Source: Diphasiastrum complanatum (lineage: Eukaryota > Streptophyta > Lycopodiopsida > Lycopodiales > Lycopodiaceae). From it: a stretch of DNA of 64,000 nucleotides. The notes below the pieces were generated by a model. The model did not search any database and was not told where the DNA came from. It saw only the letters and a program-made list of their open reading frames with translations. The translations under genes were made by a program, and so were the position numbers. This document shows positions 2,413 through 64,000 of this stretch, piece after piece; positions within the stretch are counted from its first letter, which is position 1, and the number at the start of each line of letters is the position of its first letter. The stretch is taken from NCBI GenBank assembly GCA_029204225.1, contig CM055100.1, forward strand, positions 16,723,785 through 16,787,784, written 5' to 3'.

Positions 2413-3146
2413 TGTACTTTTTGCACACCCTCCGCCTGTCAAGAAGGGTTAGAATACAAGATAGGTTCCTAACTATGTTTACTTGCTAGTTTAGATGCTA
2501 TTCTAACTCTACTTTAACACTAACCCACCTTAACACTACTTCAATTAACTCTAAACACAAGCATTCATCATGATTGGGGGTGAAAGAGGAAGAGAAGAAG
2601 AGAAAGAGAGAGGGGTGAGATGGAGGTTGGCTCAAATGCTCAATGTGCATGCTAATGGAAATGACATCACTAATCAAAACAAGAACAATGAAATGGAAAA
2701 CAAGTAGAAAACACAACAATAGCGTTAGCATGAGGGATTAGCAAATGAGGATGCTTTGGCTCTCAAAAATAATAGAGTCTCCTCTCACTAAGCATGGGAA
2801 ATGGTTACAAATGGTGTGTTTTTATATCTTTGGGGTGGCCCTTTCCTATTGGCTACTTGCAAGAAGGTGGCATTGAAATCCACACCCATCACAAGAAGCA
2901 CAAACTAATCTATGGTGTAGGAAGAAACACACCGACTTGTGACTATTTTACAAAACTCAGAAACTTGGTTTAGCTTAAAATTTGGCCTCTAAATATTATT
3001 TTAATTACATGGCCCAAAGTCAAGTTTATTCCAAAATAATTATTTACAAGTGCTCATTGGGCCATGGGCTTAGTATGCCACAACCCTTGCAACTTATTTT
3101 TATTTTTTCAACCCATTTATTTATTTACATGGAAATACCCCTAACA
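2413..3146 (-). repeat. LTR beside family-U copy 1
   Basis: This segment is clearly related over its whole length to 62232-63099. Shared blocks include CGCCTGTCAAGAAGGGTTAG (2433 onward), GATGGAGGTTGGCTCAAATG (2618 onward) and the GGGCCATGGGC block near 3058. On the + strand it runs TGT...AACA. A minus-strand TATA-like box (GATATAAAAA, about 2820-2830) suggests transcription in the same direction as the family-U gene, which ends just past the right edge. A 20-bp GA-rich run here corresponds to a long (GA)n array in the other copy. I see no good polypurine tract at the gene/LTR junction. Confidence 0.65.
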
Positions 3147-3549
3147 GGGCCTCTGACCTGAAGTAGTGTCGGTCCCTCGGCACTATGGTGCTTAGTAGGC
3201 ACTCCGTCTCGCGCTTCGTTGGTGAATCATGTAGCCGATCACTTCTTCCATGAAATCTAGGCGTTTAATGTTTGTCGTATCCTTGGAGGGGAAGAAGGAC
3301 TTGTGGACACCAAGTAGCCAACTTTGGTTGACCAATGTTTGAAAATGGCTTGTCCAGGGATGGCCTATGAAGGTCGCTCGATAATATACATGAGCCACTG
3401 GCAGTTGATCTTCCACTTTCTGTGATGCCAGGGCTAAGTTCGGATCAAAACAGATACCTCGTCCCACTTTGTTGGTATGCCCATCAAATGTGCAAGGTCG
3501 CGTGCAAATATTGATGTTGCACTGACCGTAGGATTGGGGCACTTAAAAT
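3147..3549 (-). pseudogene. Family-U protein, copy 1, C-terminal part
   Basis: The minus-strand frame (best at 3192-3542) matches the end of copy 3 near 63.1-63.5 kb. Shared strings include KVEDQLPVAHVYYRATF, GVHKSFF, a block like FMEEVIGYMIHQR, and upstream CPNPTVSA against CPDPTVRA. The frame breaks near 3190 and the terminal RDRHYF block lies in another frame. The upstream part of the same gene is found beyond 6073, because a composite copia insertion (3550-6073) splits it. The function is unknown to me. The decayed frame means it is not functional as it stands. Confidence 0.6.
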
Positions 3550-3910
3550 TGTTGGATTTCAATGCTCAGGACCAAAATCATTGTAATGAGCATCCCAAAA
3601 AATACAACCAAAGTCGACTCCATCGACTTTGAAGTCACCAAAGTCCGAAGTCCGACTTCATCAACTTTGACTTCTCCATATATATAATCAAACGTTAACC
3701 TCCGAAGTGTCCGACATCGACTTCCTGTGTATACTCATATGATATATAACAACACGCTTACTTGCAATCAAAGTCATCGACTTCTCATGTATATACATAT
3801 GTTCATATGTCCAAAATTGACTTGCTTGACATTGACGTACTCGACATTGACTTTTCAAACACTAACTCCATCAACCGACTTCATCGACATGTCCGACTTC
3901 ATCGACTTAC
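3550..3910 (+). repeat. Truncated left LTR of element A
   Basis: It begins TGTTGGATTTCAATGC and matches the right copy (5272 onward) until about 3910, then diverges. The shared part is crowded with variants of TCGACTT and GTCCGACTTC and includes a TATATATAA run (about 3678). Confidence 0.75.
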
Positions 3911-4001
3911 AGACTTAGTTCATACCTCCAAGGGCTTACTAAACCTTGTACATAGCGACATTTGTGGCTCGATGCAGACTGATTCGACAGCGGGAGATCT
4001 T
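3911..4001 (+). pseudogene. Copia integrase fragment
   Basis: A short + strand frame reads LLNLVHSDICGSMQTDS. This matches the conserved copia stretch between the GAG-pre-integrase domain and the integrase core (LVHSDxCGPM). It is cut off by the element B LTR at 4002. It is too short to assign to element A or B. Confidence 0.6.
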
Positions 4002-4365
4002 TGTGAAAGATTCAACTAGTTTCATCACATTTTGCTATATTTTCATATTTGGCATATTGAGGCCAAAACTTGTTTTAGACTTAGAGGTTGACTTTTCAAA
4101 GTTCATTAGCCTAAATTTCATTTGAATAAACACTTTTTGAAAGTGTGGGAAAGTTAGAATAAGAGTTAGAGTAGATTCAAATTTGAATAGTTGAGTACAT
4201 TGAATCTAGACCCAAAATTAGTAGGGTTAGCATTTTGGAGGGAAAGCCAAGTGGCCAAATAGGGTTTGGACCTGTTATAAAAGGATGTAACTCGTGGAGG
4301 TATTTCTCTTTCTAACCAAAGATCATTCAAGTAGATTGAATCTTAAGGATCTGAAATCTTTCACA
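4002..4365 (+). repeat. 5' LTR of element B
   Basis: This 364-bp segment begins TGTGAAAGAT and ends ATCTTTCACA, a perfect 10-bp terminal inverted repeat. A TATA-like ATAAAAGG lies near 4277. A tRNA primer-binding site follows directly. Confidence 0.8.
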
Positions 4366-4377
4366 TGGTATCAAAGC
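4366..4377 (+). other. Primer-binding site of element B
   Basis: TGGTATCAAAGC directly follows the LTR end CACA. It is one mismatch from the common copia site TGGTATCAGAGC, complementary to the 3' end of initiator-Met tRNA. Confidence 0.8.
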
Positions 4378-4962
4378 TTGTGTTTCAGGTTATGAAGGAG
4401 GAAATCAGATCTATCAATGATTTGGTGAAGATATCAAGTCTAGAGCATGCTAGAGAGGATTCTACAACAAAATCAGATTTTTTGCTTTTGTAGATTGGAT
4501 CTTTTGTAGATCAAAACACTAAATAGGTCAATATACTTGATCAATTTCGATTTTTGAATTCACATACTGGATTTGGCCGATTTTTGGATCATTGGATCAG
4601 CCTAAGTGGGCTAATAGATTGCATATCAAATTTTCAGCATTTGCATGTAGATTTGGAATAGTCAATTTTTTGTGATTTTGTCAAAACCCTAATTTTGATT
4701 GGATCTCTAGATAGTGAGGTTGCTGGACTTCGTTTGAGTGTGTTTCAATATTAGGAAGTGGCAAAAGTCATTAGATTGAGGATAGATCATAGGTTGTTCA
4801 AGATTCCATGATTCTATGTGTTGATTTGCTTGATAAGTGCTAGAAGAGAATTTGTGAGATAGTTTCAAATCTTAGTGATTTCTTTTGAAAGCATTTGTTG
4901 TTGTTCAAAGGAGTGCTTTGTGCATTGAAACAAGTTGAGAGAGAAGATCAGCTCTTTGCTAC

Positions 4963-5263
4963 ATGGCAACCTCAATTGGAGTCATGTTGGAAGCCAATGA
5001 TAGGCTTACTTCAACTAGCTATTCATTGTGGAAAGTGAGGATGGAGTCACTTCTTGAGATGAGTGATGTTTTGGATATTGCTGTAGGTTTGGAGGAGAGA
5101 CCAGCAACACAACAAGATCAAATGAGGTATGACAAGAGGGCCAAGAAGGCAGGACAAATTTCATGGCAACAGATTACTTCATGAAGGCTCTATCGAAGAT
5201 GAAACATCTCAGATTTAATGATATGTTAAATTTGAAGATCAAAGTTTTTCAAGATCCACATTA
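4963..5263 (+). pseudogene. Element B gag start joined to the RNase H terminus
   Basis: The frame at 4963-5184 starts MATSIGVMLEANDRL and contains YSLWKVRMESLL, as in copia gag N-termini (the same pattern occurs in element F). From about 5166 another frame reads ATDYFMKALSKMKHLRFNDM, the typical end of copia RNase H (ADxFTKALSKxKHxxF), and stops at 5263 just before a purine tract. Everything between (zinc knuckle, protease, integrase, RT) is gone, so an internal deletion joins the two ends of a copia polyprotein. Confidence 0.75.
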
Positions 5264-5271
5264 AGGGGGAG

Positions 5272-6073
5272 TGTTGGATTTCAATGCTCAGGAACAAATC
5301 CATTGAGTAATGAGCATCCTGAAAAATACAGCCGAAGTCGACTCCATCGACTTTAAAGTCACCGAAGTCCGACTTCATCAACTTTGACTTCTCTATATAT
5401 ATAATCAAACGTTAACCTCCGAAGTGTCCGACATCGAAGTCATCGACATCGACTTCCTGTGTATACTCATCTGATATATATACAACATCGACTTACCCGA
5501 CATTGAAGTCATCGACTTCTCATATATATATATACATATGTTCATATGTCCAAAATTGACTTGCTCGACATCGACTTTTCAAACATTAACTCCATCAACC
5601 GGCTTCTTTGACATGTCTGACTTTGTTGACTTAACCGAATTTGTCATCAACTTTTGTCGACTCTTTCCATCAGGGGAAGAAAAAAAATTGATCCAAATAA
5701 ACTGTCAGAAGTCTTTACGGTAGTTCACCTACTATTGTACATACAGTTATTGATCTAAGGCGGTTGTAATAAATACTAAATGGATATTTAGCAAACAAAT
5801 ATTTTACAAGTAGATTTTTTCTGTAATCAACTATAATAGCATTATCAGTAGTTGAGTTAACTAACGAATCAATCTTCTTTCAAGTAGAGTTTCTGTAGCC
5901 AGCGTTATCATGCTTAGCAAACAAGCTGAAGTTATCACTTCAAGCTATTGTACTCATTGCTGATATTAATCAGAGGGCCATTTCTGTCTCACTATTGTAT
6001 TGTTCATTTGATCTTATCTGAATTATTCATTCTAATTTTTCTTGCTGCTAATTGTGGTGCTTCCGATCCTACA
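5272..6073 (+). repeat. 3' LTR of element A
   Basis: A purine tract (AAGGGGGAG) precedes TGTTGGATTTC at 5272, the expected 3' LTR junction. The segment carries the same TCGAC-rich block as the left copy. I place the right end at 6073 (TCCTACA), where similarity to family U begins again. That end is an inference. Confidence 0.7.
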
Positions 6074-7990
6074 CCCATGCTCGCTCAAACTTCTGTTGCC
6101 AGTCATCCTCTCGATTTCCGGTAGAGATAGACATTGGAAAACTGGACGAGAGCCCTTTGGGCATCTGCGTTCGTGCTCCACGTGAATCTTCGGCTAGTTC
6201 CTCGTTGATAAGGTAATCTTTTCCAAGGGTGTATCACACTCTGCCCATTTAGATTTGTGTGGATATGGAATGAAGTGTAGGTTAACCCACAACTGCGTGG
6301 GGCTGGCCACATAGATTCCAATGGTCATTGGATTTTGTTCAAAATGCTTTTGACGCCAATCTGGCCGGGGAGCCAATGCTGGTAGGTTGGCGAGCTTATT
6401 CCCCTTGATGTCTTTGATGGAGAATGATAATTTCTAGCCAACGCGTGAGGACTTGTGTGGGTGTTGGACTATATAAGCATTGATGTTGTCCTCCACCGTC
6501 CTTGGCTTGCGAAATGCTCGACTGATATAAATGGTGTGGGAGCCTTGTGATGTGGAGGCTTGTTGTTCTGATTGGCTTTGGGTTGGTGCTACATCTTGGC
6601 TATTGTCTGGGCCTTGATCGTGGCCGCGCTCTTGAAATTTAGCCCCCATGGCTTCTTTACCCTTGTCTTGGCTTTGACTTGCCTATGTAGCTTCATAGGT
6701 TGGTGGCATTGGAATTACCACTGGGGCTATCTGCGGTTTTGTTCCATGTGCTTTTGGCAGGCCTTGAGGGCTCCTTTTGCTTGTGTAAGTTCTTGAAGGG
6801 CACTTGCATGATACACGTCAAAATTGGCTTGGTAATCATATAGTGTGGCTTGGTACACACTTTTACCTGTTGCATAAATAGGTCTGGTCCATCTCTGCTT
6901 GGCTGAGAGGATGATTGACATGGATAAGTTGGGCCAGCCAGGCTGTCTTCTCTACTTATAATTCTTGTACCTTCACTCCTAGGCGTGTCTTTTCTGTTTC
7001 AAGCACTAAAAGCTGTGCCTAGAGCGGGGTGATTCGTTGTGCTACTTTAGTCTGGATCTCTTGGACCTTGGTAGAAGCGTCTGTGGCAGTTTTGAAGAGA
7101 CTCTGGATATATGTATGGAGGTCGTCTTCTGTCTGCTTTAGTTTCAACACTTGATCCTTTTCGGCTTCTTCATGTTGTAAAGCCACTTGCAATTCTTGCT
7201 GGAGCTGGGTGATGTCAACTCGCAGCTGTGTATTATTTGTGGCCAGTTGCACCAGCCTATCGTTCAAAGATGATTTGGCTGCTACCAGATCCTGGAGATG
7301 ACTTTTCAAGACCTTATACGCTGTTGTGACATCAATTGGAATGGTTGGGAGGGTGCTGCTACTTGGGGCTTATTGAGATGCGGCCCATACAACTTGTGCG
7401 TTGCTTCCATCATCTTCCACAAGATCTTCAATTTCAGTCATATCATCTAGTGCCGTGGGGTCAGCACGCAGAGGCAATTGCACGTACTCTATTTGCACAA
7501 ATGCATCATCGGACAACGGTTTGTAACCCTCGGCAAGCTGATGAGATGGATTTGGGGGTGGTGTGAGAGGAGTGACGGCGGTAGGGAGAGGTGTGAGGAT
7601 GGATTGCTCAAAGGATGGGATGATGGGAACGGAGGGGAACTGGAGAGTGGTGTCAAGGATGGAAGGAGAGTTAGGAGGTGTGAGTTGAAGGATGTTCATC
7701 CAATTGAGGGTGTCGGCAGATAATTGTGAATCGAGAGGATCGATATGGAGAAGTGGGGTGGAAGTGGATGCAGGAGGTATGGAAGAATCGATGGTGATGG
7801 TGGGTGTGGAAGAAGCGAGAACGGCGACAGAAGGTGGAGGGATTGGAGCGATAGAAATCGAAGTGGTGATAGTAGTGGATGGTTGAACAGAAGCAGAAGC
7901 AGAAGCATTGGCTGTGAAAGAAGTAGAGCATGGTGCGGTGCATTGTCGAGTGGTTGGATGACTAGCGGAGGTAGAGGCAGTGCCACACAT
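6074..7990 (-). pseudogene. Family-U protein, copy 1, N-terminal and central part
   Basis: Read on the minus strand from an ATG at 7990, with a stop codon immediately upstream. About 200 residues are rich in Ser, Thr and Pro, ending with an acidic stretch (DDMTEIEDLVEDD). After one in-frame stop (about 7370), a coiled coil follows in the same frame (7309-7019; NTQLRVDITQLQQELQVALQ), continuing past another stop. A Gln/Ser-rich linker comes next (6649-6540). The conserved region contains SRAFRKPRTVEDNINAYIV, RPDWRQKHFEQNP and HKSKWAECDTPLEKITL. It breaks at 6073, where element A/B sits, and continues at 3549. I do not recognise the family. It carries frameshifts and stops, so it is a pseudogene here, and copies at 58.8-60.1 and 63.1-64.0 kb support the design. 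Confidence 0.65.
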
Positions 7991-9236
7991 TCATTTGCTG
8001 TGTCCAGTGAGTCAGTAACAGTTGGATGAGTGGAGGTAGATGCAATAGAAGGTGGAAAAAGTTAACATGGAACATGATGGTTGAGAGAATGTCAGTGCGT
8101 TTGAAATCCCAAATTGTTTGTTAAAAAAGGATGCAGGCAAAATTGCAAATAAGAGGCCTGGCGGCTATTCGGTTATGCGAGTTGGGTTTTATGGCTTGAT
8201 GTAATTTAGTGAGAGTAAAGGTGTGCCAATCATAGGGCACCACCAATGGGTTAGGAAAATCCTAGTAGGATTCCACAATTTGGCTGAGAAGGGTGGATAG
8301 AATGCGCTCCTTGTGCAAACTCGAGACAACTAGAAAATTATTCAACAAATGAGCAACGACTTGAATGATTATTGATAGCCTCTATCGGATAACTTGTCGT
8401 GCTATACCAATCTAGATTTGCTAGATATGTGCAGTATTTATGTCGTTCCCCAAGGAGAGAGCACTTAAAAGTTGTTTAATTGGTATAGTCCTGACTTATT
8501 TCGAATGAAATGGAGTCGAGAGTTAATCTTGTTGTCAACAGACATCTTATAAGTAACCAATATTACTTTTTGGTATAGGTGTATGTTGATAATGAATTCC
8601 AAACAACAATATTCCTCTATCAAACTGAATGAAAAGCATTCTATAAGTGAAATGTTATCAGAGTAGTTTGAATGAATTACACCTTGACTGATTAAGTTGT
8701 CAGCAAGGACTTGTGTTACGTTCGATGCATATGTGTACGAACAGACAAAAAGCGAATATTATTCTTAAACAAATGTGTTCTAGATAAAAGTCCTCAACAA
8801 CTAAAGTCCAATCACAGTTAAATAACTCAAGTAGTTCACGAATATGTTAGAAACATTTATCTTCATCTCAAACACGAATACAAATCAATAACTCAATCCC
8901 TCATGCAGGGACTAGCATTTCACATACATACATACATACTTCTCTATCAGTGACTGTGGAAAAACTGCACCAAGGGATATTTTACTCGGGTGCCGAACAC
9001 AAAATACTTGCGCAAACGAGTAAGTTAGTTTAAAGACAATTCTTTAATCTAGCTTTACGGAAACACAGCAAACGACTGTAATGAACTATTGTATTGTCTG
9101 ACCAAAGAATGATTTAAGTAATGCATACAAGATTGCTAGTAGATTTGAAATCACTCACATTCAGCAGTGCGGAGAACAAAGATTAAAGGAAATAACTTTA
9201 GACGCTCTATTCACTTCTTCAATCTCACAATACAAG
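7991..9236. other. No gene seen; probable decayed repeat
   Basis: No convincing coding frame or LTR boundary was found. By position this should be the upstream part of the element carrying family-U copy 1, but I could not find a second copy of the 2413-3146 LTR here. Confidence 0.4.
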
Positions 9237-9250
9237 AACACACACACACA

Positions 9251-9341
<91 letters not shown>
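9237..9341. repeat. (CA)n/(CT)n compound microsatellite
   Basis: A short CA run (9237-9252) passes into an uninterrupted CT run up to 9341. The apparent SLSLSL and RERERE open frames across it are artefacts. Confidence 0.98.
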
Positions 9342-13900: not shown

Positions 13901-14296
13901 TCTAGCCATTTTCCATGTAGTTACCGGAAGAGTAGCTAATGACGACAAAATCCAATTCCATCCAAAAGGCTCCCTTCACATGCAAAACAAGCCAAACCAA
14001 CCACATGCATAACGTGTAAACCATCACACTGCCATGCAATACCAAAAAAAAACTTTCTTTTCCAAAAAGACCCCAAGCAAAGTCTTCCCAAGCCGAAGGA
14101 AGAGACAATATGCAAAAAACATAACCAGCCCTCAAAACCATGCAAACCATAAAAACTTCCTTTTTCCAAAAGAAACATGCATTTGCACATAGGGGCCACC
14201 AAGCCCCAACACGAGTTTTCAAACAAAAACCAAGGTTCCAAGGATTAAGTCACGAGGCCGCCACATCTTCACTCTATGAAATGTCCAGCCGCATCC

Positions 14297-14300
<4 letters not shown>
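13901..14300. other. Overlapping minus-strand open frames, probably non-coding
   Basis: Two overlapping minus-strand frames (13902-14222 and 13936-14241) are rich in Trp, Cys and Phe and match nothing I know. They sit inside the putative minus-strand element whose 5' LTR is at 14577-15006. I treat them as chance frames. Confidence 0.3.

Positions 14301-14385
<85 letters not shown>
14301..14385. repeat. (GA)n microsatellite
   Basis: An uninterrupted GA run of about 85 bp. Confidence 0.98.
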
Positions 14386-14388
<3 letters not shown>

Positions 14389-14563
14389 TCTTCCAAAATC
14401 AACCTTGTAGAAAAGCAGTCTACCACAATTCTGAAAAGCATGCTGCAACCAAAATTTTGTGAATTCACTTTCAAAGTTCTCTTGAATTATCAGCACTCCA
14501 ATACAGAATGCAAATCCAAGTGCTTTCTTGTCTCCATTCTATCCAAGACCGCATATTAGCCGG

Positions 14564-16079: not shown

Positions 16080-17656
16080 ATGGATTCCGATGTTGGAAAG
16101 CTTTTTATTGGTGGTATTTCTTGGGAAACCACTGAAGAGAGGTTGAAGGAGTATTTTCAAGCTTATGGAGAAGTAACGGAGGTAGTGATTATGAAGGATA
16201 GAGCTACTGGACGCGCTCGAGGGTTTGGGTTTGTGGTGTTTGCTGACCCTACAGTTGCGGATCGTGTACTGTTAGAGAAGCATACAATTGATGGGAGAAC
16301 GGTATGAATTTTTGAATTATTTTATGCTTTGTGTACGAATGCGTCATTGCAGTGTACTTTTTCGTGGTGGGATTCTTCCACATCATTCTTCAATAAAGTC
16401 AGTGGTTTACTAGTCAATGCTTCTGCTATTTTGTTTAGGTGGAAGCCAAGAAAGCCGTACCAAGAGATGAACAACAGAATGTGGGAAGGAACATGACTGG
16501 TGGTGCAATGCCAACAGGCCACATTAGAACAAAAAAGATTTTCGTCGGTGGATTAGCTTCAACTGTGACCGAAGAAGATTTTAAAAGGTACTTTGAGCAG
16601 TTCGGTGCTATCACAGATGTAGTTGTGATGTACGATCATACTACTCAAAGGCCTCGGGGGTTTGGCTTCATCACCTTTGATTCTGAGGATGCAGTAGAGA
16701 ATGTGCTGCAAAAGCCATTTCATGAGCTGAACGAGAAGTTGGTGGAGGTAAAGCGTGCAATACCAAAGGAATTGCAGGTTGCAGCTGGGATGCGAAGTCC
16801 GGCTGGTGGGTTTTCTGGAGCTGGTCCTCGTGGTGGTGCTGCATATGGATATGGTCAAGGGTACTCCGCTCCTGCTGGGGCATATGATGGCAGAGGTGGC
16901 AGGGGTGGATATCCGTCGTATTCTGCTGGTGGTTATGGGGCAACAGGCTATGGTGCTAGTGGTGGCTATGGAGCAGGAATGAATGGAAGCTATGGAAATG
17001 CTTACGTTGGTGGATATGGAAGTGGTGCTGGGGGAGGTTATGGTGGTGGTAGTTATGCCAATGCTCCAGCAGGTGGATATGGAACAGGTGCCGCGGCTTA
17101 TGGTACTGCAGGCACGGGAAGTGCTGGCTATGGTTCTGGGCAAGGAAGGAATGCTTGGGGAACTGGGACTGGATATAGTAGCGTAGGAAGTAATGCTGGT
17201 TATGGAAGTGGAGCTAGTGGGTATGGGGGATGGACGTCAGGTGCTGGAGGAACTGGCCCAGTAACTGGTACTAGTGCGGGTTACAGCGCTGGTGGATATG
17301 GTTATTCAGGAACTGAAAGTGGTTATGGGGCTACCACTGGGAGTTATGGTGGGCGAGGCAACGGATATGCTGGTAGTACTGGCGGCTATGCTGCAGGGGG
17401 AATGACAGGAAGTGGAAGCTATGGATCAGGTTATGGAGATGGCTATGGTAGTTCAGGTTACACAGACAGCACATGGAGATCTGGAGGTGCAGATCCCTAT
17501 GGTTCTGCGCCTGGAGGAACTGGAACTGCAGCTGCTGGAGGATATGGTAGTTCAGCAGGAGGTACAGATGCTCCTGTAGCTGGAGCAGGAGGATATGGGG
17601 AAGGGTACGGTGCGACTGGCAGACAGACACAACGAGGTTTTTATATTCGCTTCTGA
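16080..17656 (+). CDS. Glycine-rich hnRNP-type RNA-binding protein with two RRMs
   Basis: This is the one convincing host gene. Exon 1 (16080-16301) and exon 2 (16439-17656) flank a 137-bp GT-AG intron (16302-16438; acceptor TTTGTTTAG), giving about 479 residues. RRM1 (residues about 6-80) shows RNP2 KLFIGG and RNP1 RGFGFVVF, and the splice falls inside its last strand before VEAKKAVPRDE. RRM2 (about 105-182) shows KIFVGG and RGFGFITF. The remaining 290 residues are Gly/Tyr/Ser-rich (GGYGxG repeats), a low-complexity tail typical of plant hnRNP1-like proteins, which bind RNA and act in splicing, export or mRNA stability. The ATG at 16080 directly precedes the canonical RRM1. A GT near 17637 could be a further donor giving another C-terminus, so the last residues (RGFYIRF) are uncertain. 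No disabling mutation was seen. Confidence 0.95.
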
Positions 17657-21389: not shown

Positions 21390-21829
21390 TGTTAGAAATA
21401 AATGACTATGCTGAAGTTAATCCATAGGTTACTTTGACCCAAAAGGTCGAGATTTGTGTAACCATGGGTATTTAGTTATTTAGGCCATCTTAAGTTTGTC
21501 TTAAGTTCAGTTGGACCCAATTTTGGTCATGTACTGACTCGTGGGTCTTTAGGGGTCTAATTTTGTTTAGGGGCCCTATCTTGACTTTTGGGGGTGCCCT
21601 ACATTTAGTAAGTGGTTAACCTTAGGGTTTGGTGGCATTTGGTCACATCCAGGCAGAGTACTTAGATGCTCATTGTGTATTCCATTTTATACAGTTTGGC
21701 TCTCCATTGCTCTTGTTGCTGTTTTCTCTCTCTCTCTCTTAGAGTTGGGCGCCCAGCCTCTTCTCTCTTGTTTCTTGTGGAGATTGATTGATAACTAGAT
21801 CTTGGTGACTTGTCTCTTGCTTTCCTACA
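21390..21829 (+). repeat. 5' LTR of element D
   Basis: It runs from TGTTAGAAATAAATG to TTTCCTACA. A 15-bp stretch near 21805-21820 is absent from the 3' copy. Confidence 0.97.
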
Positions 21830-21841
21830 TGGTATCAGAGC
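21830..21841 (+). other. Primer-binding site of element D
   Basis: TGGTATCAGAGC starts at the base after the LTR, a perfect initiator-Met tRNA site. Confidence 0.95.
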
Positions 21842-22539
21842 TACCGGATCTGCAACAAGCTTGTTTGTTGGCGCCCTACTAGAAGAGGAGCTTCTCTGCT
21901 TTTTGTTGTGAAATTTCAGCATCTTGCTGATCTTTTCAAGTGGAGTTTGGATCAGCTTTTTTGTCTCTTTTCAGGTTGAAGGAGGGCGGCCATCAGAGAT
22001 CTTGGAGGAGCAATTTTTGGCACCTAAAATCAGAATCTCAAATCTGATTTTTATGCAACCAGTTTTCAACAAGTTTTGTTTGGAGGAGGGCGCCCAAAAA
22101 TCTGCAACGGATTTTCGGTTGTGGTGTCTCCTTATCTTGCTGTTTTTGTTTTCAGGTTTGCATTTGTGTAGGACGGCGCCCAAAATTCAGCAAACCCTAT
22201 TCAGGGTTAGGTCAACTTGTGGCTGGAAATTTGCAGATTCTCAGCAAGTAGTAGGGTGCTTTCAACAGCCCTATTGGAGTGTGTTGATCACACTATTTGG
22301 CTCCCTAATTGGGTTTCGGTGTAGGCTTCAATCGAAGCGAACCTAATTTTCAAGAAGCTGGTTTTTTTGTGCAGAAAGACAGCCATCTATCCATTATCTT
22401 CTGGGCACTTTGGTTGCAGATTGAAAGATATCTTGTGCTCCTACTTTTAGCTCTTTGTTTGCTGCAAACTTTTGAGTAGATTTGGTCGTGGAAAGGCTCT
22501 CTTTCCTATCTACTACAAGCTGAAATTTTGTTGGAGGTA

Positions 22540-23032
22540 ATGGCTAAAGAATCGGAAGCTATCAGTTCTTTGTTTAGTGAAGATCGGTTGGATGGCACAA
22601 ATTACTCCTTATGGAGTTACATGATGAAGAATCTTCTCATAGCGAAGGGGCTGTGGGATGAGATAATTGAGGATGCTCAATTTGTTTCCATTACTCTCAA
22701 CTCATTACCTTCATCTTATCTTCCATTTGTTTCATCTTTGAGTATCTCTCTTAGGGGACAACAACTCTTCTTTGATGAACTTGTTGGGCTGCTTCTTCAA
22801 GAGGAGCAAACGAGGCAAAACTTTGCGGGTGACACTCAACAAGATCAAGCTTTCTTCACGAAAGGCAAAGGGCAAAGGCAAGTCAAAAGGAAAGGGGAAG
22901 CCTCCTTCCAAGGATGAACAAAAGCCCGTTGGAGGTCAAGATGTCAACACTCAAAAGAAGAAAGGGAAGTGCCATTATTGCAAAAGGTATGGGCACGTCA
23001 TCAAGGATTGTAAGAAGAAGCTTGCGAAATAG
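22540..23032 (+). pseudogene. Element D gag with zinc knuckle (shortened, frameshifted)
   Basis: The frame starts MAKESEAISSLFSEDRLDG and includes YSLWSYMMKNLL, typical of copia gag. The usual central part is missing: WDEIIED jumps straight to a block with ITLNSLPSSYLPFVSSL. A one-base frameshift in the Lys/Gly-rich run near 22870 moves the frame to the zinc knuckle CHYCKRYGHVIKDC (22970-23011). An in-frame TAG (23030-23032) then interrupts the passage into protease. Gag would form the virus-like particle and the knuckle would bind RNA. Confidence 0.9.
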
Positions 23033-23575
23033 GAGAGTAAAGGAATTGATACTAGTGCTTCACTTGCTACTTTGGAGCAAGAGCTTGAAGCTAGTGGTGA
23101 TCTCTTCAACCAAGACTATGCTTTTGTGTCTAATATTGCTTCTACTAGAACTACTACATCTATGAGGAATTCAGATTCTGTTGTGCAAGTTGCTGATTTT
23201 CAGCTCATTGAATGGGTGATTGATAGTGGTGCTACTCGTCATATGACTTCTCGCAAAGAAGCATTTACTAAATTAGTAAAAGTGCAAAATGGAAGTAAGG
23301 TACAATGTGCGGATGATGCATCTTATTCTATTCATGAAATTGGAATTGTAGCCATCATTTTGCCTAATGGTAAAGAAAAGTACATTAAGAATGTGCTTTA
23401 TGTTCCGGGAATCAAGAAGAATCTTCTTTCGGTTTCAACTATGTTGAAGCAAGGACTAGTTGTTGAGTTCAAAGAAGATAAGTGTCTTGTCAAGGATCCT
23501 AAAAGATCACTCTTGATTATTGTTTCGGGAACGATGCATGCTGGCTTATTCATTATGGATAACTATGAGCGATGA
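23033..23575 (+). pseudogene. Element D protease
   Basis: Same frame as the zinc knuckle, after one stop. WVIDSGATRHMT (from about 23213) is an intact aspartic-protease active site, and NVLYVPGIKKNLLSVS is the usual conserved block that follows. Length and motifs are normal for copia. A TGA at 23573-23575 ends the frame before the GAG-pre-integrase domain. Confidence 0.92.
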
Positions 23576-25000
23576 ATTCCCTCTACATGTCTTGTTGCTT
23601 CTACATCACAATCATTAGAGTTGGCTGAATTGTGGCACGCAAGGTTTGGGCATCTCAACTTTGCAAATTTGTAGAAGCTGAAGACATTTAATATGGTAGA
23701 AGACATTCCTACTATTGAGCAGCCGAAAGGGCATGCATGTGAGGGGTGCATACTTGGAAAGTTTCAAAGGAAACCTTTTCCAATTGATGGAACTTTAAGG
23801 GCTCTTGATAAATTTGATTTGGTTCATAGTGATGGTTGTGGTCCAATGAGGACCGAATCCATTGGAAAGTGCATCTATTTTGTGACTTCTATTGATGACT
23901 TTTCCATTTTACATGGATCTATCCTATGAAGTCTAAATCGGAAGTTTTTCAACGTTTCAAAGATTTTCTAGCAATGGTGGAAAGAAAATCAGTTTGGGCA
24001 TTCTTTGAAGACCCTACGCACCGATCAAGGAGGGGAATACATTAAGAATACGTTCGGTGCATTTCTTCGAGAAAAGGGAATTCTACATCAAATGACAACT
24101 CCCTATACGCCTTAACAAAATGGTGTTGTCGAGCGAAAGAATCGCACACTCATGGAGATGGCCCCTTGCATGCTCAAAGCAAAGGGGCTGCCTCACAAGT
24201 TTTGGGCTGAAGCGGTTATAACGGCAACATACATAAGCAATTGTTGTCCTACTAAAGCATTGAAAGTATTAACTCCTTATGAAGTTTGGTATGGAAAGAA
24301 GCCTACAATCTCTCACTTTCGCATTTTTGGTTGTATGGGTTATGCTTTTGTTCCGGATAAACTTCGTACAAAGCTTGAAGATAAAGGAGTTAAATGCATT
24401 TTTGTTGGCTATAGTAGTGAAAGCAAAGGCTATAGGCTGTTCAATTTGAGCATTAATAAGATTATTGTTAGTCGTGATGTGCATTTTGATGAAAAGAATT
24501 CATTGGATGTGGCCCCAACTCATATCTTGAAGGGGGACAGCCCACATAGTGTGAATGTTGAAGTTTTTCCAGATTTGGTACCATCTTCTATTGTTGGAGA
24601 TAAGGGGCCGCAAACAACCAGTTTCGACCTGCCCAACACCTCATCAAGTTTAGAGCCTAATGTTTATCAAGAACCGCCCGTTGTTGCTCAAAATCAGCCT
24701 GCAGGAACTGTTGGACAGCAAGGTCCAGTTTTGGAAGATCTTGGACAGCCAAGTGCGGTGTCGGAAGATCTTGGACAACAAATTGTAAGAAGAGACATGG
24801 CTGTTGGACAACCCAAAACAGTCCCACGGTGGCTTTTGTCGACTTTGCGGGACAACAAAGTAAGTTCATTTTATGATGGAAAGACACGTGCCTCTACAAA
24901 ATCAGTGGACTATGCTGATTTTTCAGATTTTGCTCTTACATCTCATGGAGATGTTGCAGAAGAACCTATTTTCTATGAGCAGGCCAAGGGAGTAAAGTAA
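23576..25000 (+). pseudogene. Element D integrase
   Basis: ELWHARFGHLN and CEGCILGKF (23627-23770) form the His/Cys zinc-binding region. LVHSDGCGPM opens the catalytic core. A frameshift near 23915 and a CAA-to-TAA stop inside TPYTP-QNG (about 24114) interrupt the core. From 24152 to 25000 the frame is open, with VERKNRTLMEMAPCMLK just upstream and at its start, FWAEAVITATYI, and the C-terminal FVGYSSESKGYRLF. A variable linker follows with three similar LGQP/LGQQ repeats (about 24710-24790). Confidence 0.92.
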
Positions 25001-25005
25001 AATGT

Positions 25006-25800
25006 TGGGAGGATGCGATGCAAGATGAGTATGACTCACTTATGAAGAACCAGATTTGGGTTTTTGTTGATCTTTCTCATGGGAAGAAGGCAATTGGTTC
25101 TAAATGGGTATACAAAATCAAGTATAAGGCAGATGGTACCATTGAAAGGTACAAGGCAAGGCTCGTTGCCAAAGGCTATACTCAGCAAAAGGGGATTGAT
25201 TATGAGGAGACTTTTTCTCCTACTGCTCGGATGACTACCGTGAGGGTAGTAACCTCTTTGGCTGCCCACTTTGGTTGGCGTTTGCGGCAACTTGACATAA
25301 AGACAGCATTCCTCAATGGTGATCTCAATGAGGAAGTGTACCTTCAACAACCTGCTGGTTTTTTGGTTGAAGGCCAAGAAGATAAAGTTTGTCTTCTCAA
25401 GAAGGCACTTTATGGATTGAAGCAAGCTCCGAGGATGTGGTATCAAAAGATACATGCCTACTTTTGTGATCGAGGGTTTACTAATAGTCCTAGCGAATCT
25501 ACTCTTTATGTCAAGCATACTTCAGATTATATCATCATTATTTTGCTTTATGTTGATGATATTATTATTATGGGAAGTAATGAGCAACAGATTGATGCCG
25601 TAATACTTGATCTTGGTATGGTTTTTGAAACCTCAGATTTAGGCCTATTGCACTTTTATCTTGGTCTTGAATTTGTACAAGAAGGTGCTGGAATTTTCAT
25701 CTCTCAAGAACGCTACATTGGGCAGATTTTGAAGCGGTTCAAGATGGAAGATTGCAAGCCGGTTGCTACACCTATGGAGACAAGGTCTGAAATTAAGTAG
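25006..25800 (+). pseudogene. Element D reverse transcriptase
   Basis: From AMQDEYDSLMKNQIW through SKWVYKIKYKADGTIERYKA, TAFLNG and ALYGLKQAPRMWYQKI to the catalytic YVDD (25549-25560), this RT is complete and uninterrupted. The frame stops at 25798 through a shift, and RNase H continues in another frame from 25763. Taken alone the RT motifs look intact; only the frame breaks on both sides mark it as part of a damaged polyprotein. Confidence 0.94.
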
Positions 25801-26509
25801 TCAAGGTGATGGTGAATCATTTGACACTACTTTATATTGTCAAGCTATTGGCTGTCTCATTTACCTATGTAATTCAAGACCGGACATTTCTTATAGTGTC
25901 TCACTCATGAGTCAATTCATGCATGCCCCGATGACATCACATTGGAAAGCGTTGAAGAGGATCTTTCGATATCTTCAAGGAACAAGAAGTCATGGACTGG
26001 TTTTTCCTGCTTGTGATGATGCATGTTTGGTTGGTTTTAGTGACTCGGATTGGGGTGGAGATCAAGACACTAGACGCTCTACAAGTGGACATTGCTTTTT
26101 TTATGGTAATTCTGCAATTTCGTGGTCAAGTAAAAAGCAGCCCACTGTTGCTACTTCTTCTAGTGAGGCAGAATATAGAGCGATATTTTCAGCCACGACA
26201 GAGTGTTTATGGCTGAGAAGACTACTTGTTGACATGAAGTTTGGCGAGCCCTCAGCCACTCTTATCTTGATTGATAGTCAAAGTGCTATTGCCATTGCAC
26301 GGAATCCTGTTTTTCATGCGAGGACGAAGCACATCGAGATCCATTATCACTTTGTTCGGGAGAGACTTCATGATGGCGACATTTTACTTGAATATTGTCC
26401 TACGGAGGATAATATTGCGGACTTCTTCACTAAGGCGTTGCCTAAAGTCAGATTTGAAGCTTTTTGCAAAGCTTTAAATTTGATACCACGTGTTAGATTT
26501 GTTACATAG
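25763..26509 (+). pseudogene. Element D RNase H domain
   Basis: It continues the RT thumb (YCQAIGCLIYLCNSRPDISY) and then shows the RNase H residues in order: SDSDWGGD, SSEAEYRA, IDSQSAI and TKHIEIHYHFVRERL, with the terminal IADFFTKALPK. The stop at 26507-26509 is followed by the purine tract and the 3' LTR. Confidence 0.94.
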
Positions 26510-26546
26510 TGAAGATTTCAATTTTTGCATTTTCATTTAAGGAGGG

Positions 26547-26971
26547 TGTTAGAAATAAATGACTATGCTGAAGTTAATCCATAGGTTACTTTGACCCAAA
26601 AGGTCGAGATTTGTGTAACCATGGGTATTTAGTTATTTAGGCCATCTTAAGTTTGTCTTAAGTTCAGTTGGACCCAATTTTGGTCATGTACTGACTCGTG
26701 GGTCCTTCGGGGTCTAATTTTGTTTAGGGGCCCTATCTTGACTTTTGGGGGTGCCCTACATTTAGTAAGTGGTTAACCTTAGGGTTTGGTGGCATTTGGT
26801 CACATCCAGGCAGAGTACTTAGATGCTCATTGTGTATTCCATTTTATACAGTTTGGCTCTCCATTGCTCTTGTTGCTGCTTTTTCTCTCTCTCTCTTAGA
26901 GTTGGGCGCCCAGCCTCTTCTCTCTTGTTTCTTGTGGAGATTGATTGATAACTAGATCTTGCTTTCCTACA
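26547..26971 (+). repeat. 3' LTR of element D
   Basis: Preceded by AAGGAGGG and ending CCTACA directly before GGATA. It is almost identical to the 5' LTR. Confidence 0.97.
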
Positions 26972-33415: not shown

Positions 33416-40364
<6,949 letters not shown>

Positions 40365-40506
40365 TCTTCCCATGAGTTACATCCTTTTATAAAAGTTCTA
40401 AACCTCATTTCAAACTTTGGTTTCCCTCCAAAATGAAAAACCCTATTATTTTTGTGATCAGATTCAATGTCTCTACTACTCAAACTGAAACTACCAACAA
40501 CTCGTG

Positions 40507-41570
40507 TGTTGGAGAGAGAGAGATATAGGAAGAGAGGAGAAAGGTGTCGTGTGTGAGAAACAAAACATTAGCTCAAAAAGGGAGTAAGACGAACATGAAC
40601 GAGAAACGAACTCAAAACAGAAAGTGTTCGTGCGCAGCTGAACGAGCTATATGACTCTCTCCGTAAGCATGACTATGCCTATCAGAATGAGCAGAATGTT
40701 AGTGATGGAAATCACGGTCATTCTTGATTACGTAGCCAAACCTTAATAAATGAAGTGCCAGAAGAATAATTTGTCGCAAATAGCAAGACAAATTATGTGT
40801 CGCGAATGATTCACGACGGGCTAGACAGTGCTCAACTGATAATAAGTCGCGAAAGATTCACGAAAGACAAGATTGAATGATAGTCATCTATTACCAAAAA
40901 TGAACAACTGGAAAAGTCAGACATAATGAATAATAATAAGCATAGCAATATTAACACAAAACAAAGACTGTTATCAGATTAAGTATATCAAGTATACATG
41001 TCGATAATGTGGTAGAGCACAAGACAATAGCGGACGAAACCACGTGCTCTATGAAGCTTATTCAATCTATAAAGGAATGAAACCTTATGACTGACTATAA
41101 AGAATCAATGCGCAAGGCATCTACTCTGTCTATCTCTCTGACAAGCCTCTGGTGCTAATTTACATACACTCTCCTCTTCCTATCTTTTCATCTTTTCTTC
41201 ATCATCCAATGAATACGCAAATGGTATTTAATATATATATACATAATGTTACAGGTGTGTTGATGAAGAAAGTACAGGGTGGATGTGCTTTCTGTAGGAT
41301 ATCGTGGGTGGCTATAGTCATTGTCCAGTCTATTAGCGCAGCTGCATGGGATCAGCGTGAAAAGGATGCGATGTCAACCCTTGTTGAGGTGAACGTTGGT
41401 TGTCACCTGAACATGTGTAAAAACACAGTGTCGCGATTCTTTCGTCTTTTCTTCTCCTGTGAGAATTTGCATGTTATTATGCAGACTGCGCGACAATGCG
41501 AGTAAATATGCAGCATGAATGGAGGCAGATTAAAATGGGATTCAGGTGAGTAGAGGAAATAAATCCAACA
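40507..41570 (-). repeat. 3' LTR of element E
   Basis: 1,064 bp beginning TGTTGGA and ending TCCAACA (7-bp terminal inverted repeat). It contains several CGCGAA and TCGCGAAT motifs (40790-40870). Confidence 0.92.
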
Positions 41571-41586
41571 CCCCCCCCCCCCCCCC
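41571..41586 (-). other. Polypurine tract of element E (poly-G)
   Basis: Sixteen C in a row on the + strand, so G16 on the element strand, directly upstream of its 3' LTR. A homopolymeric polypurine tract is unusual. Confidence 0.8.
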
Positions 41587-41702
41587 TAATCTGGATCCAT
41601 GAATGCCTTGATTTTCATACTAAGCAATGCACAAAATTTGTTGTGTGCATTAACACTGAGTGCTTTCGTGAATATGTCTGCAACCATGTCCTGCGTTCTG
41701 CA

Positions 41703-42122
41703 TTACGTTAAGCTTACTTCCTTGTTGAGAACTTTGCCCCTAATGTAGTGATATCTGATTTCAATGTGCTTACTCCTAGAGTGAAATCTAGAGTTGGCCG
41801 ATAAGGCAATAGCACTCTGACTATCACAAAATAAAATTGTAGGGCTGTACTGATTCAGATTAACATCTGATAGTAAATTTATCAACCAAAATGCTTCCTT
41901 GATAGATTGAGAAGCAGCAATGTATTCCGCTTCTGTAGAAGAAAGTGCGATATAAGTTTTCTTATGACTGTTCCATGAGATAGGATCGCCGTTGAAGAAG
42001 AATGTAAATCCAGATGTGGATTTACAATTGTCTACATCTCCTCCCCAGCTTGCATCAGAATAACCACTGAGTTGATGAAGATTGTCATTGCTGACATCTC
42101 CATAACAGATACACTGGTCCAT
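41703..42122 (-). pseudogene. Element E RNase H domain
   Basis: The minus frame shows GYSDASWGGD, ALSSTEAEYIA, CDSQSAIALS and SKHIEIRYHYIRGKV, the usual copia RNase H order. It ends soon after, before the usual ADxFTKxL block. Confidence 0.9.
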
Positions 42123-42200
42123 GGTAGCTCAAATATATCTCATGACTTGTATGAGAGCCTTCCAATGGGTAATTCCAGGACTAGCCATATATTGGCCGGA

Positions 42201-42593
42201 TCAGCTTACAGCAAAAGAGATATCCGGTCTTGTACAGACCATTGGGTACATGAGAGATCCAAGTATCGATCGATAAGGATACTCTCTCATTTGCTCCTCT
42301 TCCTGCTTGGTCTGGGGACATTGGTCCTTTGACAGATGCAGGCCTGGATCCATTGGTGAGTGAGCTAAGTTACAATTCATCAAATTATATTCGTTAAGAA
42401 CATTGTGAAGATACCTTTGTTGAGTAATGTAAATCAATCGCTGTGCTCTGTCTCTGTGGATATGAAATCCTAGACAGAAGTGAGCTTCGCCCAGATCAGT
42501 CATGTTGAACTCTGAAAACAGCATCTGTTTTGAATCCTTGACCATATTGGTATTGTTGTTGAAGAGCAACATACGCGTTAGCAATGCACCCAA
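42201..42593 (-). pseudogene. Element E RT C-terminal part
   Basis: The minus frame reads MTDLGEAHFCLGFHIHR, then YLHNVLNEYNLMNCN and YRSILGSLMY-RPDISFAVS, the copia RT region downstream of YVDD. The RT catalytic core is absent because a deletion joins this directly to the integrase end. Confidence 0.88.
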
Positions 42594-43100
42594 ACACTCT
42601 TAGGTTCTTCAAAGAAGGCTTAGAGCCTGTCCACACCTCGTGGGGTGTCTTGCCTGAGAGGGCCTTGGTCGAACATTTGTTCTGGATGTAAGCTACAGTG
42701 GAGACAACTTCAGCCCAGAATCTCTTGGGCAACGACGCATGCGATAGCATACATTTGGCAAATTCAACCAGGGTACGGTTCTTCCTCTCGGCTAAGCCAT
42801 TAGATTGAGGACTATAAGGAGTGATGAATTGCTGCTCAATGCCTTAGCTTTGACAGTACTTCTTAAACTCGATAGAGATATATTCTTCACCATTATCTGA
42901 CCTGATTGGCATCCTTCAGAAGGATTTTCAATCGGGCAAATATCTGAATGTACAACATCTAGCAATCCTCTAGCAATATGTTGATGGCTTGATTTAGATG
43001 GTTTCCTAGTCTGTTTACCAACTAGACAGTCTTGACAGACAAGTAACTCGACTTTTTTGCGAGGATAGTTGAGATCAAGAATAGTGGATTGTCTAAACAT
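42496..43100 (-). pseudogene. Element E integrase
   Basis: The frames 42792-43100 (CQDCLVGKQTRKP, DVVHSDIC) and 42496-42750 (KRFWAEVVSTVAYIQNKCST, TPHEVWTGSKPSLKNLRVFG) give the zinc-binding and catalytic parts of copia integrase. The integrase end is fused to the RT remainder. The region around the central catalytic residues is damaged by deletion and shift. Confidence 0.88.
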
Positions 43101-43121
43101 TTGTTGTATAACAACATGATT

Positions 43122-43623
43122 TTAATGACCAAGTCTATAATGCCAAAGTAAACCTTTATTTGAATGAATAGAAGTATTGAGAGCCTGACTAGAGGTAGAA
43201 AAGCAATGAATTAATTTGTACAAGTATCCATGCCTCTTTCCGAGTGCCAAGATCTTGCCTGTCCTATCAACTACTTTACACTGATCACATTCAAATTCTA
43301 CTCTATGTCCTAGATTTGTGATTCTGCTTACAAAGAGCAGATTCGTAGATAAATTTGGTACATAAAGGACTTTAGAGAGTAGCTTAGACTGATCATTAGC
43401 AAAGCTTAATAGCTTGTGTGCTATTGTCACCAAGGTGAACATAATTTTGGATATTGTAAGGTGTATAAGACTCGAAATAGCCAATAAGACTAGTCATATG
43501 CTGAGTGGCTTCGAAATCCAGAAACCAAGAACTGTGGCCAGATGCTCCTTGATGGCTGGTCTTGAAGGCATCATGATCCACTTCTTGAATAGGTTGTGGA
43601 GCTTCTGCAGCTGCATTTGCCAC
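43122..43623 (-). pseudogene. Element E protease and GAG-pre-integrase
   Basis: WFLDFEATQHMT stands where copia proteases have WxxDSGATxHMT, so the Asp-Ser-Gly triad is changed to Asp-Phe-Glu and the enzyme would be dead. Downstream come KVLYVPNLSTNLLFVSRIT and LLWHYRLGH, typical of the region before integrase. Confidence 0.88.
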
Positions 43624-44452: not shown

Positions 44453-44575
44453 GTGGGAGAAACTATCAGTGACTTAAGTATGAAAATCTGATACTGAAAA
44501 TACAGAACAAGAAATCAGTTACTCTATCGGCTAGTAGAGTCTAGTATTGTGGAAGCTTATCAAGCTATGAAAATA

Positions 44576-58778: not shown

Positions 58779-60108
58779 TTACTTAAAACCAATTGCCCGA
58801 TGTAAGTCAAAAATTAAATAGTAAACGAAGTACTCAAAACCAACTGCCTGATGTAAATCACTAACTAAAATAGATCCAGTAATAGGTAATGCAGGAAGCT
58901 TTGAAGAAGCCGCTCCTGCAAACTGAGCCCGTCGAAGAATTGAAATCGCATGTGAACGTTGTAATGCTATAGAAATACGCCGGCGGTAGAAAGAAATAAT
59001 GACGGAAGGTAAGGTAATGCTTTGTCCTTGGCGTTTCACCATAAGCTTCGCACATAAAGATAAAAAATCATTAAATTTCTTGTGAAGACAACCATAAGTT
59101 TCCAAGGCAAAGGGGATGAAATCTTCACCGGGTGCACGATCATTATGATCTCGTTCCTTTTCTTGTGCTGCTTGAGATGCAGCGGCCTAACAATAGGGTT
59201 TGGTGAATTAGTTGTTTCAGTGAGGAATCGGTTGAGGGCTCTTTGGAAATCAACCATTGTGTTCCAACCTTTTGCAGACTTAATGATCGACCAATTGTAA
59301 GCCCCTCCACTTGGAGTTTTGAGTGCGAACCATGACCAATAAAAAGCTATTCTAATCAAATATTGAAAAGTAAGAGGTAAATTATCGTCTAAAGTAGTGG
59401 AAAACTCTAGAACGACAGTGAACTACTTCTTGAGGACCCTAAGTTGGCCTTCTGCTACCTGAAGCGCTTGCTCATCTTCTTGGAGCATGGCGCGTAGGGT
59501 TGCCAGCTCGGTATTCTTGGTGCAGAGTTCAATGTCATGAAGCTTTCTTTGATCCGGGTAAGTTTGTAGCACACGACTACAATAGTCCTTATATTATTCA
59601 GCGCGCTTCCTCTGCAACTTTTGAGCAGCTGGTGATTTGTCTTTTGTCATGACTACCATTTGATCTAGGGCAGTCTGGATGGCTTGCACCTGCTGGTCTG
59701 CTTGTTGGACTTTCAATTCCAGGGCCGCCTGTTGAGTCTGGAAGTTGGTCTGGCCCTCTGATTCTCTATTCATTCCTTTGAGACATTACATTTTAATTGG
59801 CAGATGTAATCCTTGAGCAATCTCTCTGAGCCTTGGAGAGATTCACATTCTTGTTCCAGCACTGTTTGTTTTAGTACAAGGTGGTGACGGTCGGATTGAT
59901 AAGTTTGTCGGGTGGTCTTCTCTTGAAAGATCTGGGACTTGAGGTTGTCCATATGTTGTTGTTGTTGTTGAGCTGCTTGCTCTGCTTTCTTAAGCTGCTC
60001 GATCAATTGATGGACCAGCTCTTGACTTTCTTTCCTCTCTTTTTCTCTCTCTTTGTTAAGCTGCGTGACCTGATCAGTCAAGGCCTGCAGCGTTTGTCCC
60101 TTGGCCAT
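58779..60108 (-). pseudogene. Family-U protein, copy 2
   Basis: Minus strand from an ATG at 60108. The first 112 codons are a strong coiled coil (LTDQVTQLNKEREKERKESQ). After a break near 59770 the coil continues in another frame to about 59430 (LELKVQQADQQVQAIQTALD, one stop inside). The C-terminal region (59359-59036) shows YNWSIIKSAKGWNTMVDFQR and NPIVRP, corresponding to FNWPIIPSEYGWTTDVDARR and DPTVRA in copy 3. The remainder (59105-58779) is degenerate. The long coil suggests an oligomeric structural protein, as gag proteins can be, but that is inference. Confidence 0.6.
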
Positions 60109-60142
60109 GGGATTGCTCAGTAGCTCTTACAGAGGGCATTTG

Positions 60143-61310: not shown

Positions 61311-62219
<909 letters not shown>

Positions 62220-62231
62220 GGTCGAAGATCT

Positions 62232-63099
<868 letters not shown>

Positions 63100-64000
63100 G
63101 GACCCACGGCCTGAAATAGTGACGGTCCCTCGGCACTTTTCCGATTAAGTAGAGCGTCCTCTTTGCCCGCCTCTGGTGGATCAGGTAGCCCGTAACGTCT
63201 TCCATGAAATTGAGACAGTCCAGTTTCTTCAAGTCCTTGGACGTGTGGAAGGACTTGTGGACTCCTGTCAGCCATTCTTGATCGATCCATGCTTGTAATC
63301 GGCGCGTCCCATGGCTCTCCAAGGAATGCAGCTCGGTAATATACACGAGCGACTGGCAGCTGATCTTCGACTTTGTTGGAAGCTAGCATTATTAGAATCA
63401 AAGACTATTGAGGGAAGAAAATCATCCCATTTTGTTTCAGTGCCCATTAAATGTTCTAAGTCTCGGAGGTAAGTAGCTACCGCGCGGACGGTTGGATCAG
63501 GGCAATTGATATATTGGTTTGCGAACGCGGTGAGAGCCCTTCTGGCATCTACATCCGTAGTCCACCCATATTCTGATGGTATGATCGGCCAATTAAAATT
63601 CTGAAGTGTGATCTTGTCCATAGGGGTGCCGCATTTCGCCCATTTGGATCTTCGTGTACACGGCAGGAAGTGCACGTTCACCCGTACGTAGGCCCTGATG
63701 GCCGCAGGGTCTCTTTCGAACAACTGCTGACGCCACTCTGGTTGTGGTTGGAGGGCAGGTAATGCCTTGCAGTTCTTTTCCCTTTATGGTCTGAGCTGAA
63801 AACGATATCTGCCAGCCGCTTCTTGATGACTCGTGGGGATACTTTGATAGAAATTCGTTGATTTTCTCCTCTACAGACTTTGGTCTTCAAAAGGCCCGAC
63901 TGGTGAATATCGTGCACGAACCTCTGGATGATGTGGCTTGGCTTTGGCTCGTATCTACGCCTTGGCTCTGGTCTCGCATCTCTACAGACTTTGGTCTTCA
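63100..64000 (-). pseudogene. Family-U protein, copy 3, C-terminal part, cut by the window end
   Basis: Minus frames cover SRAF and a PKSVEEKINEFLSKYPHESS block (about 63890-63830), then VNVHFLPCTRRSKWAKCGTP, ITLQNFNWPIIPSEYGWTTD, NCPDPTVRAVATYLRDLEHL, KVEDQLPVARVYYRAAFLGE, SFHTSKDLKKLDCLNFMEDV and RDRHYF. It is the best preserved C-terminal region of the three copies, with a few frameshifts. The N-terminal part lies beyond 64000. It ends beside the LTR at 63099. Confidence 0.65.

Follow-up and report, generated by a model that had tools for sequence, protein, structure and literature searches.

What kind of gene lies behind an unrecognised protein family that seems to recur beside long terminal repeats (LTRs) in a stretch of 64,000 nucleotides of Diphasiastrum complanatum (assembly GCA_029204225.1, contig CM055100.1, positions 16,723,785 to 16,787,784; the whole stretch is called the window below)? 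An earlier note, made from the letters of the window alone, had described this family, here termed U, at three minus-strand loci (copies 1, 2 and 3) and had envisaged an LTR element with U as its main product, perhaps a gag-like or accessory gene of a non-autonomous lineage. The answer that emerges is a different one in part. U is very probably the C-terminal domain of a third sense gene, situated after pol and before the 3' LTR in an Athila-like Ty3/gypsy element, and a new family of 3' extra open reading frame (ORF), in the ‘env position’, is the best heading under which to file it.

An element with pol upstream of U

The genome searched was the source assembly itself (1.74 Gb, 5176 contigs). 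Each search scored 150 candidates, so that copy counts are lower bounds, and even as such they are high: with the U piece of copy 3 there were at least 150 scored matches, 65-100% identical, among 13966 first-look candidates, with the C-terminal piece of copy 1 at least 150 of 8644, and with the copy 2 piece at least 150 of 6142, many of these via an attached unrelated repeat. Twenty copies (L009-L028), picked mainly for long open frames, were fetched together with six upstream extensions (L029-L034). Counted with regard to orientation, a reverse transcriptase (RT) or RNase H-integrase piece precedes U on its own strand in 12 of the 20, the RNase H-integrase piece itself in 10 and a gag tail/protease piece in 7; in 15, other portions of the post-pol ORF share the strand of U, and an LTR follows U in 17, its main pieces matching at 82-97%. 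L015 has neither pol nor the rest of the post-pol ORF on the U strand, L011, L016, L020 and L024 have pol and lack the rest of that ORF, and in L018 and L028 pieces of its N-terminal domain, E_N, are 6-7 kb away from U.

The order along the element is gag tail, protease region, RT, RNase H, integrase, post-pol ORF and 3' LTR. On the strand of U and upstream of it, Pfam recognises RT (RVT_1, E 7e-15 in L012 and 5e-26 in L033) and RNase H (6e-20 in L012, 1e-32 in L009), with integrase represented by Integrase_H2C2 (2e-9) and by rve at 5e-7 and 2e-6, both just under the curated cut-off. Cys/His-rich motifs were recognised by eye in the gag tail upstream of RT, where Pfam gave no gag or zinc-knuckle match; also by eye, gag-like sequence from L022 recurs before this tail in L032. 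The L009 frame that reaches the pol stop, the one copy scanned for it, has no chromodomain match in Pfam at E up to 1, and no additional RNase H was found in the RNase H-integrase frames scanned, coverage of the 5'-end region being partial. With its tRNA-Asp primer, and neither extra RNase H nor chromodomain in the parts scanned, the layout is Athila-like.

Three copies of U lie between paired direct LTRs of the TG...CA form (L022, 93.5% identical; L009/L029, 95.4%; L012/L031, 94.4%). From its coordinates L009/L029 is about 13 kb long, and L022 is a 5.6-kb internally deleted derivative without pol, in which a gag-like frame (o6224-6664 onward) runs into the Ser/Thr/Pro part of the post-pol ORF. 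Five fetched copies (L009, L010, L012, L013 and L014) were extended upstream and a 5' LTR was seen in two of them; L010 has just a 115-bp fragment at 71%, none was found in the extensions of L013 and L014, and for copy 3 there is none within 10 kb upstream. The primer-binding site TGGCGCCGTTGCCGGGGA directly follows the 5' LTR in L029, is present as a one-base variant in L022 and is lost in L031. Across the genome a 17-base complement of the site is found 1413 times, against 0 for a reversed-pattern control, and all five sites inspected (at four loci) follow such an LTR end, three clearly and two in diverged form. A tRNA-Asp(GTC) gene whose 3' end is complementary to the site exists in the genome (two matching places, with an ARAGORN tRNA in one); at the four primer-site loci themselves no tRNA was called, as expected. 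By eye there is no clear purine run just before the LTR start.

The LTR element of the earlier note is thus borne out, as is its option of an accessory gene, U being in an ORF after pol. That U would be the main product is contradicted by the gag tail, protease region, RT, RNase H and integrase that related copies carry upstream of it. A non-autonomous lineage is not inherent in the layout, although an internally deleted paired-LTR derivative, L022, does exist. Neither of the two findings that the earlier note would have taken as refuting it came up: three copies are between paired LTRs, and U itself has no match to a known gag or pol family in Pfam.

The post-pol protein and its sister family

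The post-pol ORF, roughly 3 kb on the sense strand between pol and the 3' LTR, consists in order of E_N (about 230 amino acids), a Ser/Thr/Pro-rich stretch, a coiled coil and U (about 265 amino acids). Some 0.8 kb without a clear conserved frame separates it from the integrase stop, and in L014 its frame stops about 30 bases inside the 3' LTR. Neither U, nor its sister family U2, nor E_N has a Pfam match at E up to 10, so that no known gag or pol family there accounts for U itself. NCBIfam has no match for U or U2 and a single one, at E 0.11, for E_N; profiles of U/U2 and of E_N have none in PDB at E up to 10, the U piece alone giving two PDB matches at E 0.89, and viral contigs gave no match. 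NCBIfam matches to the L009 ORF are mostly of coiled-coil type (SMC, E 4e-7). A Retrotrans_gag match to the same ORF at E 0.01, below the cut-off, is inside its coiled coil. For the predicted coiled coils of copies 1 and 2, which the earlier note had pointed out, plausible, not strong, is the fitting description: the Pfam coiled-coil matches are sub-threshold, 9 and 10 of 200 shuffles had a heptad score at least as high, and the related L009 ORF has the SMC match just mentioned. A simple scan of five natural segments disclosed no clear transmembrane segment, the highest 19-residue hydropathy, 1.59, falling in the Ser/Thr/Pro-rich stretch; the usual threshold for a membrane segment is 1.6.

Is copy 2 part of the same family? 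Within the window it has in common with copy 3 a single 38-residue block (50%, E 1e-7), and tblastn at E up to 1 did not find in it the remaining blocks that had been listed in order for all three loci; that series is real for copies 1 and 3, and its SKWA..TP motif has a diverged counterpart, SWFALKTP, in the U/U2 alignment. The three-locus family accordingly stands for copies 1 and 3, on protein and LTR homology, while copy 2 (60126-59189), weakly confirmed as a member, is a fragment of the diverged sister subfamily U2, matching the U2 locus L035 in three pieces at 82-89% nucleotide identity. Assignment of all of copy 2 to one family was rejected, as only 60126-59189 belongs, and that to U2. 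Between U and the U2 of L035 there is 30% identity over 209 residues (E 4e-25).

Selection

Ratios of nonsynonymous to synonymous substitution (dN/dS) were obtained by pairwise Nei-Gojobori comparison of natural copies, leaving out rows with less than 60% query coverage or identical to another, stop codons, and pairs that were either saturated or very close. In its own frame U gives 0.20 (31 rows; other sense frames 0.96 and 1.16), RT 0.18 (9 rows; 0.82 and 0.99) and U2 0.19 (7 rows; 0.76 and 1.30), with E_N at 0.31 (12 rows; 0.56 and 1.26) and RNase H/integrase at 0.32 (7 rows; 0.60 and 0.84). Purifying selection on U is about equal to that on RT. Elsewhere in the ORF, constraint is loose on the Ser/Thr/Pro stretch (0.64) and tight on the coiled coil (0.23). 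The LTR, as a control, gives 0.71-1.15 across six frames (33 rows), and the gap between integrase and the ORF gives 0.47-0.62 in all sense frames with no codon-position bias (6 rows). Since the gap is uniformly at about 0.5-0.6, ratios of that size are no proof of coding, and it is on U, U2 and RT, near 0.2, that the claim rests.

What might the protein do, and what else might it be?

A coiled coil, together with no clear membrane segment, suggests a protein that would multimerise through the former and serve intracellularly as an accessory to the particles or RNA of the element, be it in trafficking, assembly or counter-silencing, and that would not be a membrane-fusing envelope. Such a role, read from the sequence, is put forward tentatively, as a reasonable possibility. 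More doubtful is the fuller proposition that U/U2 marks a true third gene for a soluble coiled-coil non-envelope protein, under selection as strict as that on RT, in two deep subfamilies of which U2 may reside in pol-less elements.

Several considerations weigh against a third gene of an Athila-like element with this function. E_N (0.31 versus 0.56) and RNase H/integrase (0.32 versus 0.60) stand out less clearly from the other sense frames, and the antisense frame that mirrors the codons of U has a ratio of 0.37, that of RT 0.29; a codon mirror effect is usual in antisense frames, and these ratios are taken as such an effect and not as a second gene. Open frames through E_N reach at most 416 amino acids in the copies then fetched, none of which therefore has the whole post-pol ORF open, and the fractions among the 20, a choice guided mainly by long open frames, are not genome-wide ones. 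Target-site duplications of 5 bp are imperfect, with four of five bases matching, by reading, at L009/L029 and L022 and three of five at L012/L031. Similarity to gag/capsid is weak (E 0.008 and 0.017, both short of the cut-offs) and was seen in a frame of the deleted copy L022; at the U2 locus, one of 7 kb, no pol or related LTR was found. Two AlphaFold models, all-helical, are of low confidence (predicted local distance difference test, pLDDT, 41.7 and 48.6), and as both are below 50 no fold is claimed.

Unlikely, to our mind, is that U is part of an envelope-like protein with its place of action at membranes or plasmodesmata, as the ‘endogenous retrovirus’ model for plants would have it: no 19-residue window attains the hydropathy threshold of 1.6, and U and E_N are without a Pfam match. 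The env position, the sense strand and a tRNA-Asp primer like that of Diaspora and Calypso would nevertheless suit it, as would the coiled coil, listed as a feature of envelope proteins in PMC1142308. Marginally less probable again is a host gene captured by the element. Transduction can indeed give rise to extra ORFs (PMC7264820), yet U and U2, just 30% identical, are both repeats with in-frame dN/dS of about 0.2, and for that reason the domain is considered old in elements; the searches, none aimed at a host homologue, each listed the 150 best-scored places. The earlier suggestion of a gag-like structural protein, main product of a non-autonomous LTR element, is the least probable. It could draw on the paired-LTR copy L022, where a gag-like frame continues into the post-pol ORF in the absence of pol, and on the all-helical cast of the low-confidence models. 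It was rejected because U follows integrase, the gag tail and protease region are upstream of RT and no U piece has a gag match; L009, L012, L013 and L017 largely refute it.

The copies in the window

Copies 1 and 3 are decayed insertions, as is the fragment that is copy 2 (Table 1). The U pieces of copies 1 and 3 are mostly 38-61% identical in amino acids (E down to 1e-23) and agree in order and strand; the LTRs at which they end, 66-73% identical in nucleotides (E 5e-33), each start with TGTT (at 3146 and 63099) and have a TATAAAAA box in the same direction, just as had been noted. The CA end of the copy 3 LTR, at 62215, was placed by alignment with the paired-LTR copies, and that of copy 1, too diverged for exact placement, is approximate (about 2413). 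One doubt over the LTR reading came from the homology of both window LTRs stopping at a shared GACAGGCGG; the paired copies make the LTR about 30 bases longer.

On the minus strand copy 1 extends from 8369 to about 2413, with no element homology found upstream of 8369. An insertion of about 2.5 kb (about 6120-3550), with its own direct repeats of about 360 bp, 81% identical, interrupts it; this insertion, and the ORF homology upstream to 8369, had escaped the earlier note. Copy 3 (64000-62215, minus strand) runs on beyond the window edge into L033, where E_N, RNase H and RT are on the strand of U and integrase is mostly missing. The same contig carries, at a distance of about 0.5 Mb, two copies of the U end of copy 1 (3195-3542) that are 98-99% identical and on opposite strands (C9:17219890 and C9:17269370). 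Many other U matches also come as near-identical pairs, one member often on a small contig, which suggests that the assembly holds haplotypes left unmerged or segmental duplications.

Table 1. Parts of the U and U2 copies, and of sequences inserted in or adjoining them, in the window
Feature	Positions	Strand	Basis or remark
Copy 1 3' LTR, start TGTT	2413..3146	-	Alignment to copy 3 LTR; low end approximate
Copy 1 U, C-terminal part (CPNPTV..KVEDQLP..GVHKSF..FMEEVIGYMIHQR), frameshift inside	3195..3565	-	Homology to copy 3
Insertion splitting copy 1 U, LTR-element-like, direct repeats 3550-3909 / ~5272-5633 (81%)	3550..6120		Exact borders inferred
Copy 1 U, N-terminal part, one stop and one frameshift	6106..6547	-	Homology to copy 3
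Copy 1 putative coiled-coil segment, post-pol ORF	7022..7369	-	46-53% to L010/L009; sub-threshold coiled-coil Pfam matches
Copy 1 Ser/Thr/Pro-rich segment, post-pol ORF	7373..7990	-	35-60% to related loci
Copy 1 E_N (N-terminal domain) remnant	8055..8369	-	tblastn, 54-65% to L012
Repeat after copy 2, unrelated, outside the U family	58779..59188	-	Query residues 76-128 match separate loci, mostly short frames
Copy 2 U2-domain fragment	59189..59335	-	82% amino acid identity over 49 residues to L035 U2
Copy 2 putative coiled-coil region, U2 protein	59426..60126	-	69% amino acid identity over 64 residues, 82% nucleotide identity to L035
Copy 3 3' LTR (TGTT...CCTACA)	62215..63099	-	LTR alignments; matches downstream in 17/20 loci
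Copy 3 U, frameshifted	63149..64000	-	Continues off-window into L033

Elsewhere in the window a copia-type element, so labelled by eye, occupies 21390-26846; it has long gag-pol frames and direct repeats that agree at 99% across 300 bp, and is a young insertion. A second element-like pair of direct repeats (91-93%) surrounds decayed copia-like frames, also labelled by eye, at 40719-49689. The sole host-like gene noticed is a frame of 405 amino acids at 16439-17656, which we take to resemble a glycine-rich plant heterogeneous nuclear ribonucleoprotein (hnRNP)/RNA-binding protein. Long (GA)n/(CT)n microsatellites are at 9253-9341, 14238-14451, 40087-40365, 61985-62094 and 62440-62550, one of them within the copy 3 LTR.

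Comparison with known systems

That plant elements can carry an additional ORF behind pol is already known (PMC7264820, PMC6317226, PMC11963269). In the survey by Neumann et al. 2019 of 314 Ty3/gypsy groups (PMC6317226), 21.4% of the eORF-3'F class matched CDD, most being without known domains, and no single domain is reported to recur in the eORF proteins across most elements of a lineage, the plant mobile domain, Transposase_28 and Athila ORF-1 being partial exceptions. The post-pol ORF is like eORF-3'F in position and strand, and known domains are likewise mostly absent. A literature search over titles and abstract openings, mostly open-access, met with no description of it. As far as such searches show, what is new is the particular protein family, how strongly it is conserved and that it has no clear transmembrane segment; the ORF may nonetheless have a place among the eORF groups of PMC6317226.

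Retand (PMC11963269) likewise has coding sequence after pol and before the 3' LTR, but its Transposase_28 ORFs are antisense whereas the U ORF is sense, and the latter has no PF04195 match. Tat (PMC10508981), of a related superclade, is described as having an additional RNase H, of which none was found here in the parts scanned. Selgy and Phygy (PMC6317226) are non-chromovirus Ty3/gypsy elements also; they are short, however, and by that account their polyprotein fills nearly the whole internal part, where the U element has its post-pol ORF of roughly 3 kb.

The closest likeness is to the Athila clade (Athila, Calypso, Bagy-2, Cyclops-2 and Diaspora), with its Ty3/gypsy layout without a chromodomain, its tRNA-Asp primer, to which an 18-base site in Diaspora and Calypso is complementary (PMC1142308), and, in most members, a sense ORF after pol. 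The usefulness of the plant ‘env-position’ ORF proteins is disputed (PMC7264820, PMC6317226, PMC1142308), because the ORFs described are heterogeneous and often broken. The conserved domain of U, in two diverged subfamilies and at least 150 scored copies, and its codon-level selection of RT strength offer a concrete protein to express and localise. The env-like ORFs of the Athila clade are reported to have little mutual similarity, none being functional by the authors' criteria (PMC1142308), and the post-pol ORF of the U element has no match to the Athila ORF-1 family of Pfam; unlike those ORFs, it has one domain that two subfamilies 30% identical hold in common, at a dN/dS of about 0.2.

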